From: Microcella indica
GTDB lineage: Bacteria > Actinomycetota > Actinomycetes > Actinomycetales > Microbacteriaceae
Reading direction: 5' to 3'
DNA length: 64,000 nucleotides
NCBI RefSeq assembly: GCF_013414345.1
Contig: NZ_CP058670.1
Coordinates: 1,302,001 to 1,366,000 of the forward strand
Under the pieces are notes generated by a model. That model was not told the DNA's origin. It ran no database searches and saw only the letters and a list, made by a program, of their open reading frames with translations. Below, piece by piece: positions 2,286-42,596 of the stretch. The position numbers were made by a program, and so were the translations under genes. The number at the start of each line of letters is the position of its first letter. Position 1 is the stretch's first letter.

Positions 2286-3107
2286 ATGACGGGACGCGAG
2301 CTGCATCGGCCTGGTCGCCGGGATCGGATGATCGGCTGTGGCGTAGCCCTGGCCGTTGTTCTCGTCGTCGCAGGGTGCACCGGGCCTTCTGAGCCCGGCG
2401 TGGCGCCCGCCGCCGCTGAGACGGCGCCAGTCGAGCCCGGGGTGCTCGGCGCCGCCCCGCGTCCGACGCTCGACGCCGGGGAGGTCGTCGCGACGGGGAC
2501 CCTCGCGGGCGACGCGACCGGCACGGTGACCATCACCGCAACGGGTGACGGAGGCTTCGGTGTGCGCATCGACGACCTCGGGACCAAGTTCGACGGTCTG
2601 CTGACCCCCTACCTGGGCACGGAGACCTTCGTGCCCGGCGAGTACTGCGCGTCGACGCGTGCGGGTCTGCACGGGTTCGGCGATTTCGTTCCGGCGCCGA
2701 CGTACTCGTTCGCCCTCGGCGGCTTCGGTCATGGAGACTCCCCGTGGCCCGACCCCGCCTACCTCGACGACCTGGTCCTGACGCGCTCAGGGGAGCCTCT
2801 CGACGACTGCATCTCCGCGGTCGCCGGAGTGGCGCCGCTCACCTGGACGTTGCCCGACATGCGGCCGGGGCTGGCCGTGACCGATGACGGGCCGACCGGG
2901 GGAGCGCGTGGCGAGGTCGAGCTGTCGGATGGCTACCCGGTCGCCTACTCGGTGGTGGACGACGATCTGCTGCCCTCGATCGCGGCGCGCTTCGGCGTCA
3001 CCCTCGACGACCTTCTCTACCTCAACCCAGCGCGGGCCGTGCCCGGCGACGACCCCGCGCTCGCCTACGTGGGTGAGACCCTGAGTCTCGATCCCGCGAA
3101 TCGCTAG
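2286..3107 (+). CDS. LysM-domain lipoprotein
   Basis: A predicted exported lipoprotein of 273 residues. The N-terminus has basic residues (RRDR), a hydrophobic core and the lipobox VVAGC (Cys about residue 31), so it should be lipidated and anchored in the outer leaflet of the cytoplasmic membrane. The middle part has no family I recognise. The C-terminal 55 residues (about 216-270, from YPVAYSVV to GETLSLDP) resemble a LysM peptidoglycan-binding domain, with the usual ...IAARFGVTLDDLLYLNP... pattern. The ATG at 2286 supplies the charged n-region; a later ATG at 2328 would leave the signal peptide without positive charge, so 2286 is favoured although no strong ribosome site is visible. The stop codon touches the first unit of the tRNA-tail repeat. 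The function is unproven; a cell-wall role is inferred. Confidence 0.85.
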   Translation: MTGRELHRPGRRDRMIGCGVALAVVLVVAGCTGPSEPGVAPAAAETAPVEPGVLGAAPRPTLDAGEVVATGTLAGDATGTVTITATGDGGFGVRIDDLGTKFDGLLTPYLGTETFVPGEYCASTRAGLHGFGDFVPAPTYSFALGGFGHGDSPWPDPAYLDDLVLTRSGEPLDDCISAVAGVAPLTWTLPDMRPGLAVTDDGPTGGARGEVELSDGYPVAYSVVDDDLLPSIAARFGVTLDDLLYLNPARAVPGDDPALAYVGETLSLDPANR

Positions 3108-3114
3108 TGGTGCG

Positions 3115-3272
3115 TACCGGCTGTGGGATTCGAACCCCGCGACGCACCGCGTCGCGCAGAACCGCACGGTTGTGTCGTGCGACTCGTGGTGCGTACCGGC
3201 TGTGGGATTCGAACCCCGCGACGCACCGCGTCGCGCAGAACCGCACGGTTGTGTCGTGCGACTAGTGGTGCG
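3115..3272 (-). repeat. Two 79-bp tandem units repeating the tRNA-Leu 3' end
   Basis: Units at 3115-3193 and 3194-3272 differ at one base and lie directly downstream of tRNA-Leu in its own direction. The same 79-bp register continues into the tRNA gene: the discriminator base pairs with 3273, and the corresponding positions are 3194 and 3115. Each unit copies about 23 nt of the tRNA (T-loop, T-stem 3' side and acceptor 3' strand) plus the trailing ACGCACCA. It then adds two perfect hairpins: an 8-bp stem with 3-nt loop (3138-3156 in the first unit) and a 6-bp stem with 7-nt loop (3163-3181). The copied T-stem is broken on its 5' side, so the units cannot fold as full tRNAs. Confidence 0.93.
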
Positions 3273-3355
3273 TACCGGCTGTGGGATTCGAACCCACACG
3301 CCCTCTCGGACAAAGCATTTTGAGTGCTCCGCGTCTACCATTCCGCCAAGCCGGC
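3273..3355 (-). tRNA. tRNA-Leu (anticodon CAA)
   Basis: Read on the minus strand the gene folds as a class II tRNA. The acceptor stem is GCCGGCT with AGCCGGT (7 bp, first pair G-U). The D-arm contains TGGCGGAATGGTAGACGC. The anticodon stem is GAGCA with TGCTT around the 7-nt loop CTCAAAA, giving anticodon CAA, which reads UUG. There is a long variable arm (GTCCGAGAGGGC) and a T-arm GTGGG-TTCGAAT-CCCAC. The discriminator is A at 3273. The following bases are CGCACCA, so CCA is not encoded directly after the discriminator. The gene diverges from pdtaR. Confidence 0.95.
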
Positions 3356-38978: not shown

Positions 38979-39743
38979 ATGACTTCTCTCATCATCCGCG
39001 ACCTCCACGTGAGCATCGAGACCGACCAGGGCACGACGCCGATCCTCCGCGGCGTCGACCTCACGATCAACTCGGGCGAGATCCACGCCATCATGGGCCC
39101 CAACGGCTCCGGCAAGTCGACTCTCGCCTACACGATCGCTGGCCACCCGCGCTACACCGTCGACTCGGGGTCGATCACCCTCGACGGCGAGGATGTGCTC
39201 GCGATGAGCGTCGACGAGCGCGCCAAGGCCGGGCTCTTCCTCGCCATGCAGTACCCGGTTGAGATTCCCGGCGTCACCGTCTCAAACTTCCTCCGCACCG
39301 CGAAGACCGCTCTTGACGGCCAGGCCCCGCCGCTGCGGTCGTGGGTCAAGGACCTCAAGACGTCGATGGAAGCTCTGCGCATGGACGCGGGCTTCACGGA
39401 GCGCAACGTCAACGAGGGCTTCTCGGGCGGCGAGAAGAAGCGCCACGAGATCGTGCAGCTCGAGCTGCTGAAGCCCAAGATCGCGGTGCTCGACGAGACC
39501 GACAGCGGGCTCGACGTCGACGCGCTCAAGATCGTCTCCGAGGGCGTCAACCGCGTCAAGGACAACACCGATCTCGGGGTGCTCCTCATCACGCACTACA
39601 CGCGCATCCTGCGCTACATCACGCCCGACTTCGTGCACGTCTTCGTCGAGGGCCGCATCGCCGAGCAGGGTGGCGCCGAACTGGCAGAGCGCTTGGAGAA
39701 CGAGGGCTACGATCGCTACACCGCGGGCGCCCCCGTACACTGA
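38979..39743 (+). CDS. sufC: Fe-S cluster assembly ATPase SufC
   Basis: A 254-residue ABC-type ATPase that drives conformational change in SufBC2D. Seen: Walker A MGPNGSGKSTLAY (about 37-49), Q-loop in FLAMQYPVEIPGV, the SufC-specific signature NEGFSGGEKKRHEIVQ, Walker B KIAVLDETDSGLDVDAL and switch His in LLITHYTRIL. It has no membrane partner. ATG 38979 is preceded by AAAGGA. Its TGA stop overlaps the -10 element of the next gene by one base. Confidence 0.98.
   Translation: MTSLIIRDLHVSIETDQGTTPILRGVDLTINSGEIHAIMGPNGSGKSTLAYTIAGHPRYTVDSGSITLDGEDVLAMSVDERAKAGLFLAMQYPVEIPGVTVSNFLRTAKTALDGQAPPLRSWVKDLKTSMEALRMDAGFTERNVNEGFSGGEKKRHEIVQLELLKPKIAVLDETDSGLDVDALKIVSEGVNRVKDNTDLGVLLITHYTRILRYITPDFVHVFVEGRIAEQGGAELAERLENEGYDRYTAGAPVH
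39736..39741 (+). promoter_or_regulatory. Leaderless -10 element of sufT
   Basis: TACACT ends 7 nt before ATG 39749, so sufT can be transcribed apart from the rest of the suf operon. Confidence 0.6.
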
Positions 39744-39748
39744 TCGCC

Positions 39749-40078
39749 ATGCCCACTGCACTCGAACCGAAGCTCTTCGACGAGGTCGAGGAGGGGCTCA
39801 AGGATGTCGTCGACCCCGAGCTGGGGGTCAACATCGTCGACCTGGGCCTCGTCTACGACCTCGCCTGGGATGAGGAGTCTGACGCCCTCATCATCTCGAT
39901 GACTCTCACGAGCGCGGGATGCCCGCTCACGGACGTCATCGAGGAGTCGATCGCGAACTCGCTCGACGGCATCGTCGAGCAGTTCCGCATCAACTGGGTC
40001 TGGATGCCCCCGTGGGGCCCGGAGCGGATAACCGACGACGGCCGCGACATGATGAGAGCGTTGGGCTTCAGTATCTGA
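39749..40078 (+). CDS. sufT: MIP18/SufT-family protein (DUF59)
   Basis: A 109-residue protein of the MIP18/PaaD/SufT family, which takes part in Fe-S protein maturation. Seen: GLKDVVDPELGVNIVDLGLVYDL with the DPE and DLGLV motifs, MTLTSAGCPLTDVI with the conserved Cys, and VWMPPWGPERI. The end ...RALGFSI is unusual in that its codons and stop belong to the first unit of a 62-bp tandem repeat that continues for about 190 bp. In the usual actinobacterial order sufS and sufU come between sufC and this gene; both are missing here. Confidence 0.95.
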   Translation: MPTALEPKLFDEVEEGLKDVVDPELGVNIVDLGLVYDLAWDEESDALIISMTLTSAGCPLTDVIEESIANSLDGIVEQFRINWVWMPPWGPERITDDGRDMMRALGFSI

Positions 40079-40270
40079 GAGCCCAGTGGGCTCTCAGTGA
40101 CCAACGCTCCGCCGACAGGCGGTTGGGCTTCAGCATCTGAGAGCCCAGTGGGCTCTCAGTGCCCAACGCTCCGCCGACAGGCGGCTCGGATTCAGCATTT
40201 GACGGTCCAGTGGACCGTCAATTCCGAGCGCTCCGCCGACAGGCGGTGGGGCTTCAGCATCTGAGCCCCG
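40057..40270. repeat. 62-bp tandem array of nested, co-varying hairpins after sufT
   Basis: Units start at 40061, 40123 and 40185, with a shortened fourth at 40247; the period is exactly 62 bp. Each full unit has an outer stem of 7-8 bp, an unpaired TTCAGCAT (TTCAGTAT in unit 1), an inner perfect 10-bp stem with loop AGT, and a small hairpin CCGCC-GACA-GGCGG. Inner stems are at 40075-40097, 40137-40159 and 40199-40221; outer stems pair 40057-40064 with 40101-40108, 40122-40128 with 40161-40167, and 40184-40190 with 40223-40229. Unit 3 differs from unit 2 at seven stem positions, each matched by a change on the partner strand. The array begins in the sufT stop region and ends just before bioY, so it also serves as the space between two convergent genes. 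Confidence 0.95.
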
Positions 40271-40276
40271 CGCGAA

Positions 40277-40891
40277 CTACTCGGCCGTTCGCTCGCGCTT
40301 CTCGGCCGCACGCCAGAGCAGCGGCATGAGCGCTGCGGCGATAGCCGCCTTGATCACTCCGCCGATGATGAAGGGCAGGAAGCCCGAGGCGAGAACCGCG
40401 CCAACGTCGTTCGGCAGGCCGAGCTGGCCGAGGGAGAGGGCGAGCCACGGAAGCCCGATCGCGAAGACGACGATCGACCCGCCGATGAAGGTCACGAAGG
40501 GCTTGAACCACCCGCGGTCCCACTGGCGCTCAGCAGCCCAGCCGACGATCGCGGCGGAAGCGATGAAGCCGAGGATGTACCCGCCGGTGGGGCCCAGGAG
40601 CACCGTCCAGCCGGATGCCGCGTCACTGTAGATGGGCAGGCCGAGTCCGCCGAGGAGGGCGTAGAGCGACAACGAGGCGGCTCCGCGCGCGGCACCGAGG
40701 GATGCCCCGACGAGCAGGACGGCGAGGGTCTGGCCCGTGACGGGTACCGGCCACAGCGGAATCGCGACCTGCGCGAGGATCGCGACGAGCGCGGTACCGG
40801 CGACGACGAGGGCGGCGTCCGTCGCGAGGCTGCGGCTCACGACGCGGTCGACGAGGGTGGGGCGAGGCAGGGCGGGGGAGGCGATCGTCAC
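40277..40891 (-). CDS. bioY: Biotin transporter BioY
   Basis: A membrane protein of 204 residues (209 if the upstream GTG at 40906 is used), the substrate-binding S-component for biotin uptake. Six hydrophobic segments are visible. Family motifs are AQVAIPLWPVPVTGQTLAVLL with its conserved PVPVTGQT, GLGLPIYSD and GWTVLLGPTGGYILGF. GTG 40891 is preferred because AGGAAG stands 6-7 nt before it. No bioM/bioN ATPase or T-component is adjacent, so it may work alone or with a shared ECF module. It is divergent from the ABC-F gene and convergent with sufT. Confidence 0.95.
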   Translation of the reverse strand: MTIASPALPRPTLVDRVVSRSLATDAALVVAGTALVAILAQVAIPLWPVPVTGQTLAVLLVGASLGAARGAASLSLYALLGGLGLPIYSDAASGWTVLLGPTGGYILGFIASAAIVGWAAERQWDRGWFKPFVTFIGGSIVVFAIGLPWLALSLGQLGLPNDVGAVLASGFLPFIIGGVIKAAIAAALMPLLWRAAEKRERTAE

Positions 40892-40931
40892 AGTGGTCTT
40901 CCTCACACAGGGTCAAGGGTCGGGACACGGC

Positions 40932-40938
40932 TAGACTA
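40932..40938. promoter_or_regulatory. Bidirectional -10 element between bioY and the ABC-F gene
   Basis: TAGACT on the plus strand (40932-40937) and TAGTCT on the minus strand (40938-40933) share five bases, so one short site can supply the -10 hexamer for both divergent genes. Confidence 0.45.
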
Positions 40939-40997
40939 TCGGGCTGGCCCCCGTGCGCCGGGTCCACCGAATCCCACCAAAGAACAGGACGTTTGCT

Positions 40998-42596
40998 GTG
41001 CTCGCTGTGCAAGACCTCGAGATCCGGGTCGGTGCGCGCCTGCTCATGGCGGATGTCTCCTTCCGGGTCGACAAGGGCGACAAGGTCGGCCTCGTGGGGC
41101 GCAACGGCGCCGGCAAGACGACGATGACGCGCGCCCTCGCGGGGGAGGGCCAGCCCACTGGTGGCACGATCACGCGCACGGGCGAGATCGGCTACCTACC
41201 GCAGGACCCTCGCGCGGGCGACCCCGAGCAGCTGGCCAGAACCCGCATCCTGGATGCCCGGGGACTCGGCTCGATCGTCCTCGAGCTGCAGCAGGCCGGG
41301 GTCGAGATGGGCAGCGACGACCCCGCCGTCGCCGAGAAGGCCATGGCCCGCTACAGCCGTCTGACCGACCGCTTCCAGTCGCTCGGTGGCTACTCGGCCG
41401 AGGCGGAGGCTGCGGCGATCGCGAGCAACCTCAACCTGCCCGACCGCATTCTCGGCCAGCCGTTGAGCACGCTGTCGGGCGGTCAGCGGCGCCGCATCGA
41501 GCTGGCCCGCATCCTCTTCAGCGACGCCGAGACGATGATCCTCGACGAGCCGACCAACCACCTCGATGCCGACTCGGTCGTGTGGCTGCGGGAGTTCCTC
41601 AAGGCCTACCAGGGCGGCTTCATCGTCATCAGCCACGATGTGGCGCTCGTGGAGGAGACCGTCAACCGCGTCTTCTACCTCGACGGCAACCGCCAGGTCA
41701 TCGACATCTACAACATGGGCTGGAAGCACTACCTGCGTCAGCGCGAAGCGGACGCTGAGCGTCGCAAGAAGGAGCGCGCCAACGTCGAGAAGAAGGCGAC
41801 GGCGCTGCAGCTGCAGGCGGCGCGCTTCGGGGCGAAGGCGTCCAAGGCGGCCTCCGCGCACCAGATGGTCGCGCGTGCCGAGCGCATGCTGTCCGGCCTC
41901 GATGAGGTGCGCGCTGTCGACCGCGTCGCCAAGCTCCGGTTCCCCGACCCCGCACCGGTCGGCAAGACGCCCCTGCAGGCGCACAACCTCTCGAAGAGCT
42001 ACGGCTCGCTCGAGATCTTCACCTCCGTCGACCTCGCGATCGACCGCGGATCGAAAGTGGTCATCCTCGGCCTCAACGGCGCGGGCAAGACCACCCTCCT
42101 GCGCATCCTCGCGGGCGTCGACGAGCCCGACACGGGCGTGCTCGAGCCCGGTCACGGACTGCGCATCGGCTACTACGCGCAGGAGCACGAGACCCTCGAC
42201 ACCCGCCGCAGCGTGCTCGAGAACATGATGAGCTCCTCCGACGCCATCACCGAGCGCGAGGCCCGCAGCGTGCTCGGCTCCTTCCTCTTCGTCGGCGACG
42301 ACGTGCAGAAGCCGGCCGGAGTGCTCTCGGGCGGCGAGAAGACGAGGCTATCGCTCGCGACGCTCGTCGTATCGAAGGCGAACCTCCTGCTGCTCGACGA
42401 GCCGACCAACAACCTCGACCCCGCGAGCCGCGAGGAGATCCTGGGTGCCCTGGCCGCCTACTCGGGCTCGGTCGTGCTCGTGAGCCACGACGAGGGCGCT
42501 GTCGAGGCGCTCAACCCCGAGCGCGTGCTCATCATGCCCGACGGTGTCGAGGACCTCTGGACGAAGGACTACGCCGAGCTCATCGCGCTCGCCTGA
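40998..42596 (+). CDS. ABC-F family ATP-binding protein
   Basis: A 532-residue soluble protein with two ABC cassettes and no membrane segments, i.e. the ABC-F type that acts on ribosomes (EttA/Uup/antibiotic-resistance groups). Cassette 1 has Walker A GRNGAGKTT, signature LSGGQRRRIELAR and Walker B TMILDEPTNHLD. A charged linker (about 240-330; ERRKKERANVEKKATALQLQ) corresponds to the P-site tRNA interaction region. Cassette 2 has [21 protein letters not shown] and LLLLDEPTNNLD. GTG 40998 has AGGAC 7-8 nt upstream. Which ABC-F subfamily it belongs to cannot be decided from reading; a housekeeping role in translation is likeliest. Confidence 0.95.
   Translation: MLAVQDLEIRVGARLLMADVSFRVDKGDKVGLVGRNGAGKTTMTRALAGEGQPTGGTITRTGEIGYLPQDPRAGDPEQLARTRILDARGLGSIVLELQQAGVEMGSDDPAVAEKAMARYSRLTDRFQSLGGYSAEAEAAAIASNLNLPDRILGQPLSTLSGGQRRRIELARILFSDAETMILDEPTNHLDADSVVWLREFLKAYQGGFIVISHDVALVEETVNRVFYLDGNRQVIDIYNMGWKHYLRQREADAERRKKERANVEKKATALQLQAARFGAKASKAASAHQMVARAERMLSGLDEVRAVDRVAKLRFPDPAPVGKTPLQAHNLSKSYGSLEIFTSVDLAIDRGSKVVILGLNGAGKTTLLRILAGVDEPDTGVLEPGHGLRIGYYAQEHETLDTRRSVLENMMSSSDAITEREARSVLGSFLFVGDDVQKPAGVLSGGEKTRLSLATLVVSKANLLLLDEPTNNLDPASREEILGALAAYSGSVVLVSHDEGAVEALNPERVLIMPDGVEDLWTKDYAELIALA

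Follow-up and report, generated by a model that had tools for sequence, protein, structure and literature searches.

Double-hairpin units carrying copies of the gene end at the 3′ end of sufT in Microcella: a candidate DNA element inserted or exchanged together with the end of the gene

The sufT-like gene of the window (the whole 64,000-nucleotide stretch of DNA analysed) ends in a tandem array of double-hairpin units built around copies of the gene end, and we lean towards reading these units as a DNA element that was inserted or exchanged at the 3′ end of the gene with the end being regenerated. Read from sequence comparison are the layout of the units, their presence and absence at the same site, the exchange of the gene end along with the unit type and the occurrence of relatives in other genera. 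In the proposed mechanism one unit would repeat the final ~18 nt of sufT, stop codon included, and carry both a bulged hairpin, formed between the terminal codons of the gene and a complementary arm downstream, and a small hairpin whose loop reads G-N-(N)-A, with one more copy of the gene end standing after the last unit. At a site where the gene end had run straight into the flank, an insert and a further gene end would come to lie between the two without the gene ever being broken, the end used by the gene afterwards could be that of the newcomer, and units would multiply or vanish via recombination between the gene-end copies. The inserting molecule would have been DNA, probably single-stranded and folded, with an enzyme acting in trans, and movement or recognition of the folded form may be the reason why the pairing persists. 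Spread within the genome was not seen here, the unit being confined to one locus, and this counts against insertion.

The window comes from a genome of the genus Microcella (Microbacteriaceae) consisting of one contig of 2.585 Mb. The sufT-like gene (39749..40078, + strand) encodes 109 aa with the C-terminus ...ALGFSI* and matches Pfam PF01883 (FeS_assembly_P) with 53.1 bits against a cut-off of 23.5, with NCBIfam TIGR02945 and TIGR03406 matching below their own cut-offs. Between sufT and the convergent bioY (40277..40906, - strand; Pfam PF02632, 125.6 bits) lie three 62-bp units and a partial fourth, each with a bulged hairpin and a small hairpin, and the array described in the first-pass annotation proved real, being recovered by TRF at 40060-40265 with a period of 62, 3.3 copies, 84% matches and 0% indels. 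Unit 1 as folded (40057..40122, + strand; 90.8 bits with the covariance model R1, which was built from sufT units only) starts inside the gene, its outer 5′ arm (40057-40066) and bulge (40067-40074) being the last sufT codons that encode the protein end A-L-G-F-S-I-stop, with the stop codon opening the inner stem (40075-40084/40088-40097, loop 40085-40087) and with the outer 3′ arm (40099-40108) and small hairpin (40109-40122) following; the earlier view that the repeat was built from the sufT end is borne out by this arrangement. Unit 2 (40119..40184, + strand) is of the same type as unit 1, having 4 nt in common with its small hairpin, unit 3 (40181..40246, + strand; 86.1 bits with R1) is of another type with the TTGACGGTCC stem, and the shortened fourth unit (40247..40264, + strand), TGGGGCTTCAGCATCTGA, repeats the sufT end once more on the distal side. 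The sufT end is copied in units 2 and 3 and in the partial unit, with 20/24 nt of the gene end recurring at +38. The outer stem is longer in unit 1 because its 5′ arm consists of sufT codons (AGAGCG), units 2 and 3 starting with GGCGG. CGCT(C), the complement of sufT codons, is kept by the later units though preceded there by GGCGG, and its columns are unpaired in 4/13 aligned units.

Units 2 and 3 differ as originally described, with four changes in the inner stem (CTGAGAGCCC/TTGACGGTCC) and three in the outer stem (GTTGGGC/GCTCGGA), each matched on the opposite arm. The stretches said to stay constant, the unpaired TTCAGCAT, AGT and CCGCC-GACA-GGCGG, do so between units 2 and 3, but unit 1 has TTCAGTAT instead of TTCAGCAT and carries one G.A mismatch in the outer stem. 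Conservation of TTCAGCAT had been taken as the mark of a selected loop; it is sufT coding sequence (Phe-Ser-Ile codons), found also in genomes that have no hairpin, and so is alone no sign of such a loop. Nor can the seven changes from unit 2 to unit 3 be regarded as evolution inside the array, since two other species have a unit of the unit-3 type immediately at sufT, a nearly identical one in G009 and another in G007.

The last 21 nt of sufT track the unit type and not the remainder of the gene. The sisters G000 and G009 differ at 8/309 nt in the sufT body and at 5/21 at its end (Fisher p 0.0006), with corresponding counts of 10/309 and 6/21 for G007/G021 (p 0.0002), 20/309 and 6/21 for G014/G020 (p 0.003) and 15/309 and 4/21 for G018/G019 (p 0.025), all p values for sufT pairs being uncorrected for pair choice. 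The distant G009 and G007 differ at 35/309 in the body and 0/21 at the end (p 0.15), and G000 and G019 at 42/309 and 1/21 (p 0.33), neither comparison being significant alone. Unit 3 of the window resembles the unit at sufT of G009, whose array holds the two types in reversed order, and by reading the 3′ arms in G022 (unit 2) and in G023 match the GCATTGGGC gene end (G010, G025) and not their own. The agreement between end and unit type, together with these foreign arms, indicates that units bring a gene end along or swap the gene end by recombination.

A sufT gene was recovered from 24/26 Microcella genomes, with a unit at its end in 10/24 and none in 14/24. The number of units at sufT is three in G000, two in G009 and in G022 and one each in G007, G010, G014, G018, G019 and G023, with the degenerate unit of G015 counted among the 10; at this last locus (L131) sufT is followed directly by an ABC-F gene with no bioY in between. 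A further gene-end copy stands behind the first unit in 7/10 occupied sites, a clear distal copy being missing at G014, G015 and G018. Behind the G023 unit the distal copy runs on into the flank as CTGACAGCCGC..GAGGAAGGGCCCC, and the unit-free G013 likewise reads CTGACAGCCGC..GAGCAAGGGCCCC. On a tree of the 1150 nt upstream, unit presence changes eight times, at least six of them on well-supported branches, and is no more clustered than shuffled labels. Such scatter agrees with units having been repeatedly gained, repeatedly and cleanly lost, or both, and the two are not separable, since gene-end copies recombining with each other would excise a unit without a trace. Several genomes of the genus share identical sufT ends with named records, for instance Microcella alkaliphila AC4r (L037) and L139, Microcella alkalica GA224 (L038) and L134, and Yonghaparkia sp. 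Root332 (L040) and L135; G002, M. alkaliphila, is one of the unit-free genomes.

The three full units fold as RNA with z of -4.2 to -5.6 and the partial fourth with -3.3, while the DNA fold of units 1 and 3 reaches z of -5.8 to -8.1 on both strands, and 0 shuffles fold as well as the full units. Covariation of the stems, predicted from the window alone, is also seen among relatives: in an alignment of 13 units from nine genomes 92.9% of cells pair and 9/25 pairs have two-sided changes, with 31 cells so changed against 11.7 in shuffles and with a slid-partner control giving 0 to 2 such pairs. Further pair types were not above the shuffles (14 vs 13.4), and the small hairpin had no two-sided change in this alignment. 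RNAalifold independently predicted the long hairpin, with 17 pairs of which 8 had two-sided changes, the small hairpin being absent from the prediction. As the rows of the alignment are related these covariation numbers are not probabilities, and template switching, which homogenises the arms of inverted repeats with several changes at once (PMC8604942), can itself yield matched changes, so that covariation is no proof of selection. The suggestion that the element switches between two folds was rejected for want of covariation, the alternative fold pairing in 92% of cells across the 13 units, yet with 0/9 pairs changed on both sides. Known Rfam families were also rejected, the 12 matches at E<=10 in the region 39900-40400 being palindrome-like, at chance level and far under gathering scores (best 28.6 vs 268).

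Relatives of the unit occur beyond Microcella. With R1 at E 0.01, matches were found in 12/299 Microbacteriaceae genomes and 8/85 genera, besides Microcella at sufT in G131, G072, G034, G142 and G091 and away from sufT at six places in G200, two in G147 and in G123. A covariance-model search had been proposed from the window, and it did find relatives at other places in other genomes; the own genome gave three matches, all at this locus, and a search of 442 kb of it likewise showed the element here only. The unit therefore does not form a terminator family in this organism, and the locus has no T-run terminator (see below). A second model, R2, whose 24 training matches include copies from G200 and G147, found 30 matches in the former and 12 in the latter, one of them in each genome being an overlapping antisense match, and 0 in G078 and G247, of the same genus as G200 and G147. 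Two-sided changes were present in 19/25 pairs of the 24 R2 rows, in an alignment that had been fitted to the structure. Outer stems of the dispersed copies vary by place yet pair, with a recurrent inner loop region (mostly C-A/G-GTG), a one-sided bulge and a gene-specific 5′ end to the element; most G200 copies have CCGCC-G.(.)A-GGCGG as the second hairpin, and most G147 copies a different one. By crude gene calls, nine of 25 dispersed copies have a same-strand stop codon at -43 to +20 of their start and six lie within called reading frames. By reading, the L277 copy stands at an apparent tRNA 3′ end, at L290 in G200 the element is followed by a repeat of ~27 nt from the gene end, and at L278, also in G200, the 3′ arm of a second element complements gene DNA beyond the first.

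Among 80 named sufT loci searched with R2, the first four of the five best matches (L047, L057, L039 and L042; E 0.006 to 0.1) were at the sufT end, and 3/79 named loci repeat 13 or more of the 18 final sufT nt within 150 nt. Galbitalea sp. SE-J8 (L057) has the same plan in a different sequence, with the end GCGCGCTCGG.., the arm CCGAGCGCGC, the hairpin CCGGC-GGCA-GCCGG and the gene end again. A class-wide R2 search matched 1/394, this genome only, with low power since just 13 candidates were scored per genome. At L086, L080 and L087, in other Microbacteriaceae genera, short direct repeats of the sufT end stand right after the stop codon without a double hairpin.

Similar gene-end repeats are found at tRNA genes and at an ilvA-like gene. 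In the own genome, with 45 tRNA genes by ARAGORN and 46 tRNA-model matches, 6/45 tRNA genes have their final 24 nt repeated, with at least 20 matches, in the 300 nt downstream, namely Thr(CGT), Val(GAC), Leu(CAA), Gly(CCC) and Thr(TGT) at +50 to +60, each with a hairpin just before the copy, and Met(CAT) at +124; two cases of 18/24 are neighbouring tRNA genes, as is the best upstream case of 18. Behind the tRNA-Leu(CAA) gene (3272-3355) the array at 3104..3295 (- strand) holds two extra 3′-end copies with a 79-bp period, each after a GC-rich hairpin, and is related to the sufT unit by layout only. The tRNA-Val(GAC) repeat of the same genome lies at 10215-10363 of L185, with those of Thr(CGT), Gly(CCC) and Thr(TGT) downstream of the tRNA in L148, L142 and L147 respectively. 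At the ilvA-like gene (...GYEPRVDF*; L178 17424-17549, at ~547.1 kb of the own genome) there is a 54-bp array with gene end and hairpin in each unit. Five of 480 open-frame ends in 442 kb reach 17/24 downstream and one upstream, with sufT and ilvA being by reading the true arrays among the five. TRF over 462 kb, in which 13 kb were counted twice, gave four distinct arrays of period 40-200 (tRNA-Leu, tRNA-Val, ilvA and sufT), all at gene 3′ ends and all including the gene end.

Across the genus, a repeat of at least 17/22 nt is present at 4/23 tRNA-Gly(CCC) and 9/24 tRNA-Thr(CGT) loci, two further tRNA-Thr(CGT) loci reaching 16/22, and the tRNA-Gly site is occupied in G019 and empty in its sister G018 with an identical flank. 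None of 29 tRNA-Thr(CGT) loci in other genera had a repeat of the tRNA end, and the 293/299 returned by a family search with tRNA-Thr plus flank are uninformative on inserts because the query was almost wholly tRNA gene. By mono-nucleotide shuffles, an inverted copy of the gene end is present at sufT (G000 p 0.016, L057 p 0.008), weak for tRNA-Val (p 0.04) and not beyond chance at the Gly, Thr and Leu tRNA inserts. The tRNA inserts have the layout of the sufT unit and neither its sequence nor its inverted arm, and kinship between them is conjecture.

The main rival to a mobile element is a structured 3′ RNA selected at the stop codon, for termination without a T-run or for 3′ protection of the sufT message, with the array being a multiplied 3′ end, and this we judge unlikely. 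It draws on the covariation described above, both between species (9/25 pairs, 31 cells vs 11.7) and in the independently predicted fold (8/17 pairs), and on the distribution of terminators: a canonical hairpin terminator is found at 14/14 unit-free sites against 5/10 occupied ones (p 0.006), one of the five, in G010, being a weak hairpin inside the unit; the hairpin terminator of unit-free genomes follows within ~30 nt of the stop codon. Two stricter detectors, which overlooked mismatched stems, gave 10/14 vs 1/10 (p 0.005) and 8/14 vs 0/10 (p 0.006). An intrinsic terminator at the locus itself was rejected, there being no GC-rich stem with a T-run in 39700-41000, where hairpins have no T-run after them, and this, with the 14/24 Microcella that do without a unit, argues against an RNA role. 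The entire gene end also swaps along with the unit, further pair types do not exceed the shuffles, and neither the folded strand nor the type of nucleic acid is indicated by the data.

Alternatively the units may be functionless products of mutation, with template switching making gene end, inverted copy and gene end (a miniature tandem inversion duplication) and later switches keeping the arms matched. The order of the sufT unit is exactly gene end, inverted gene end, gene end, the outer arm fits the host's own codons in many versions, and homogenisation of inverted-repeat arms by template switching is on record (PMC8604942). We nevertheless consider this origin quite unlikely, as an 8-nt one-sided bulge and a G-N-(N)-A hairpin that recur at unrelated places and in other genera are not expected from random switching, and the Thr and Gly tRNA inserts have no inverted copy beyond chance. 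A further explanation, which appears very improbable, is that the units are scars of site-specific integration, either minimal attL-attR remnants or satellites moved in trans, left by a tyrosine recombinase using gene 3′ ends as attachment sites. The stretch from the T arm to the 3′ end of a tRNA gene is a usual attachment core and is the part duplicated here, the tRNA-Gly sites in the sisters G019 and G018 are precisely occupied and empty, and PF00589 proteins are present in 25/26 genomes. Against this the inserts are 35-60 nt long, geneless and recurrent in the same layout, no integrase is linked to the array, and searches for phages or plasmids carrying the inserts gave no convincing match (weak, E 2 to 9), with two exact patterns unmatched in viral contigs, on which grounds a phage, plasmid or viral origin was rejected.

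A mobile double-hairpin element can be set beside several known repeats. The 178-bp repeats of Escherichia coli tyrT (the rtT region) stand in tandem behind the gene and each contain its 3′ end again, in a layout close to that of the tRNA arrays here, and the sufT repeats likewise hold the 3′ end of the preceding gene; the tyrT unit is longer, and we know of no double hairpin in it. Mycobacterial MIRU are small repeats at stop codons of actinobacterial genes that leave the gene intact, with to our knowledge no inverted gene-end arm. Integron attC sites, which fold from a single strand and lie at gene ends, vary in their paired stems, bulge on one side and have conserved R boxes, RYYYAAC/GTTRRRY; these are not kept here, GCCCAAC..GTTGGGC agreeing by letters in one unit type and TCCGAGC/GCTCGGA standing in the other. 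A CRISPR array was rejected since the stretches between the gene-end copies are related hairpins and not unrelated spacers. REP-like palindromes are the nearest bacterial kind (PMC3733652, PMC2817692), REP/RPE palindromes (GTAG- or CGTC-tagged, RAYT-associated) being short, often near gene ends, sometimes clustered or intragenic and patchy among relatives, with CGTC families likewise lacking a linked transposase (PMC3733652). Unlike REP, the sufT unit has two hairpins, ~66 nt, an outer stem matched to the locus and a gene-end copy per unit, with three copies at one locus here; many dispersed copies, as in REP, are found only in G200 and G147 and not in the own genome. A RAYT-driven REP was ruled out, as Y1_Tnp (PF01797) at E 0.001 was detected in 0/19 genomes, with 5/14 in the control. 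Double-hairpin and repetitive hairpin-forming elements and GC clusters of organelle genomes are similar in form, being compact, mobile and with no known enzyme in the available text of PMC2800124, where a regenerated gene end is unmentioned. In open-licence papers, no description of the element or of gene-end repeats in Microbacteriaceae was found.

The sufT double hairpin and the tRNA-type inserts could, we suggest tentatively and with considerable doubt, be two branches of 'gene-end cassettes' in Microcella and some relatives, served by one recombinase: cargo-free folded DNA that would insert at 3′ ends (mostly of tRNA genes, also of sufT and ilvA), supply a fresh end and push older copies outward. 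Entry beside the gene would make such a row of cassettes polar, much as CRISPR and integron arrays are. If the preferred reading of an inserted or exchanged DNA element is true, the locus would be a small natural system in which folded DNA is gained or lost at a gene end with the gene unbroken, and in which gain, loss and exchange can be counted in many sister genomes. Matched stem changes within one genome can mislead, as here two unit types from different lineages were combined and the conserved unpaired stretch is coding, while the frequency of tRNA 3′-end repeats in the genus makes the putative recombinase a concrete target.

A 3′-end repeat was also seen at tRNA-Lys in G012 (L017 1501-1720), with further on a GAGAGCCCAGTGGGCTCTC hairpin identical over 19 letters to the sufT unit. 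Two places in the own genome are possible integration sites: at 2377865-2378035 a phage-type integrase fragment adjoins tRNA-Ser(CGA), and at 2530970-2533690 a weak match resembling a tRNA lies in the vicinity of another integrase gene.
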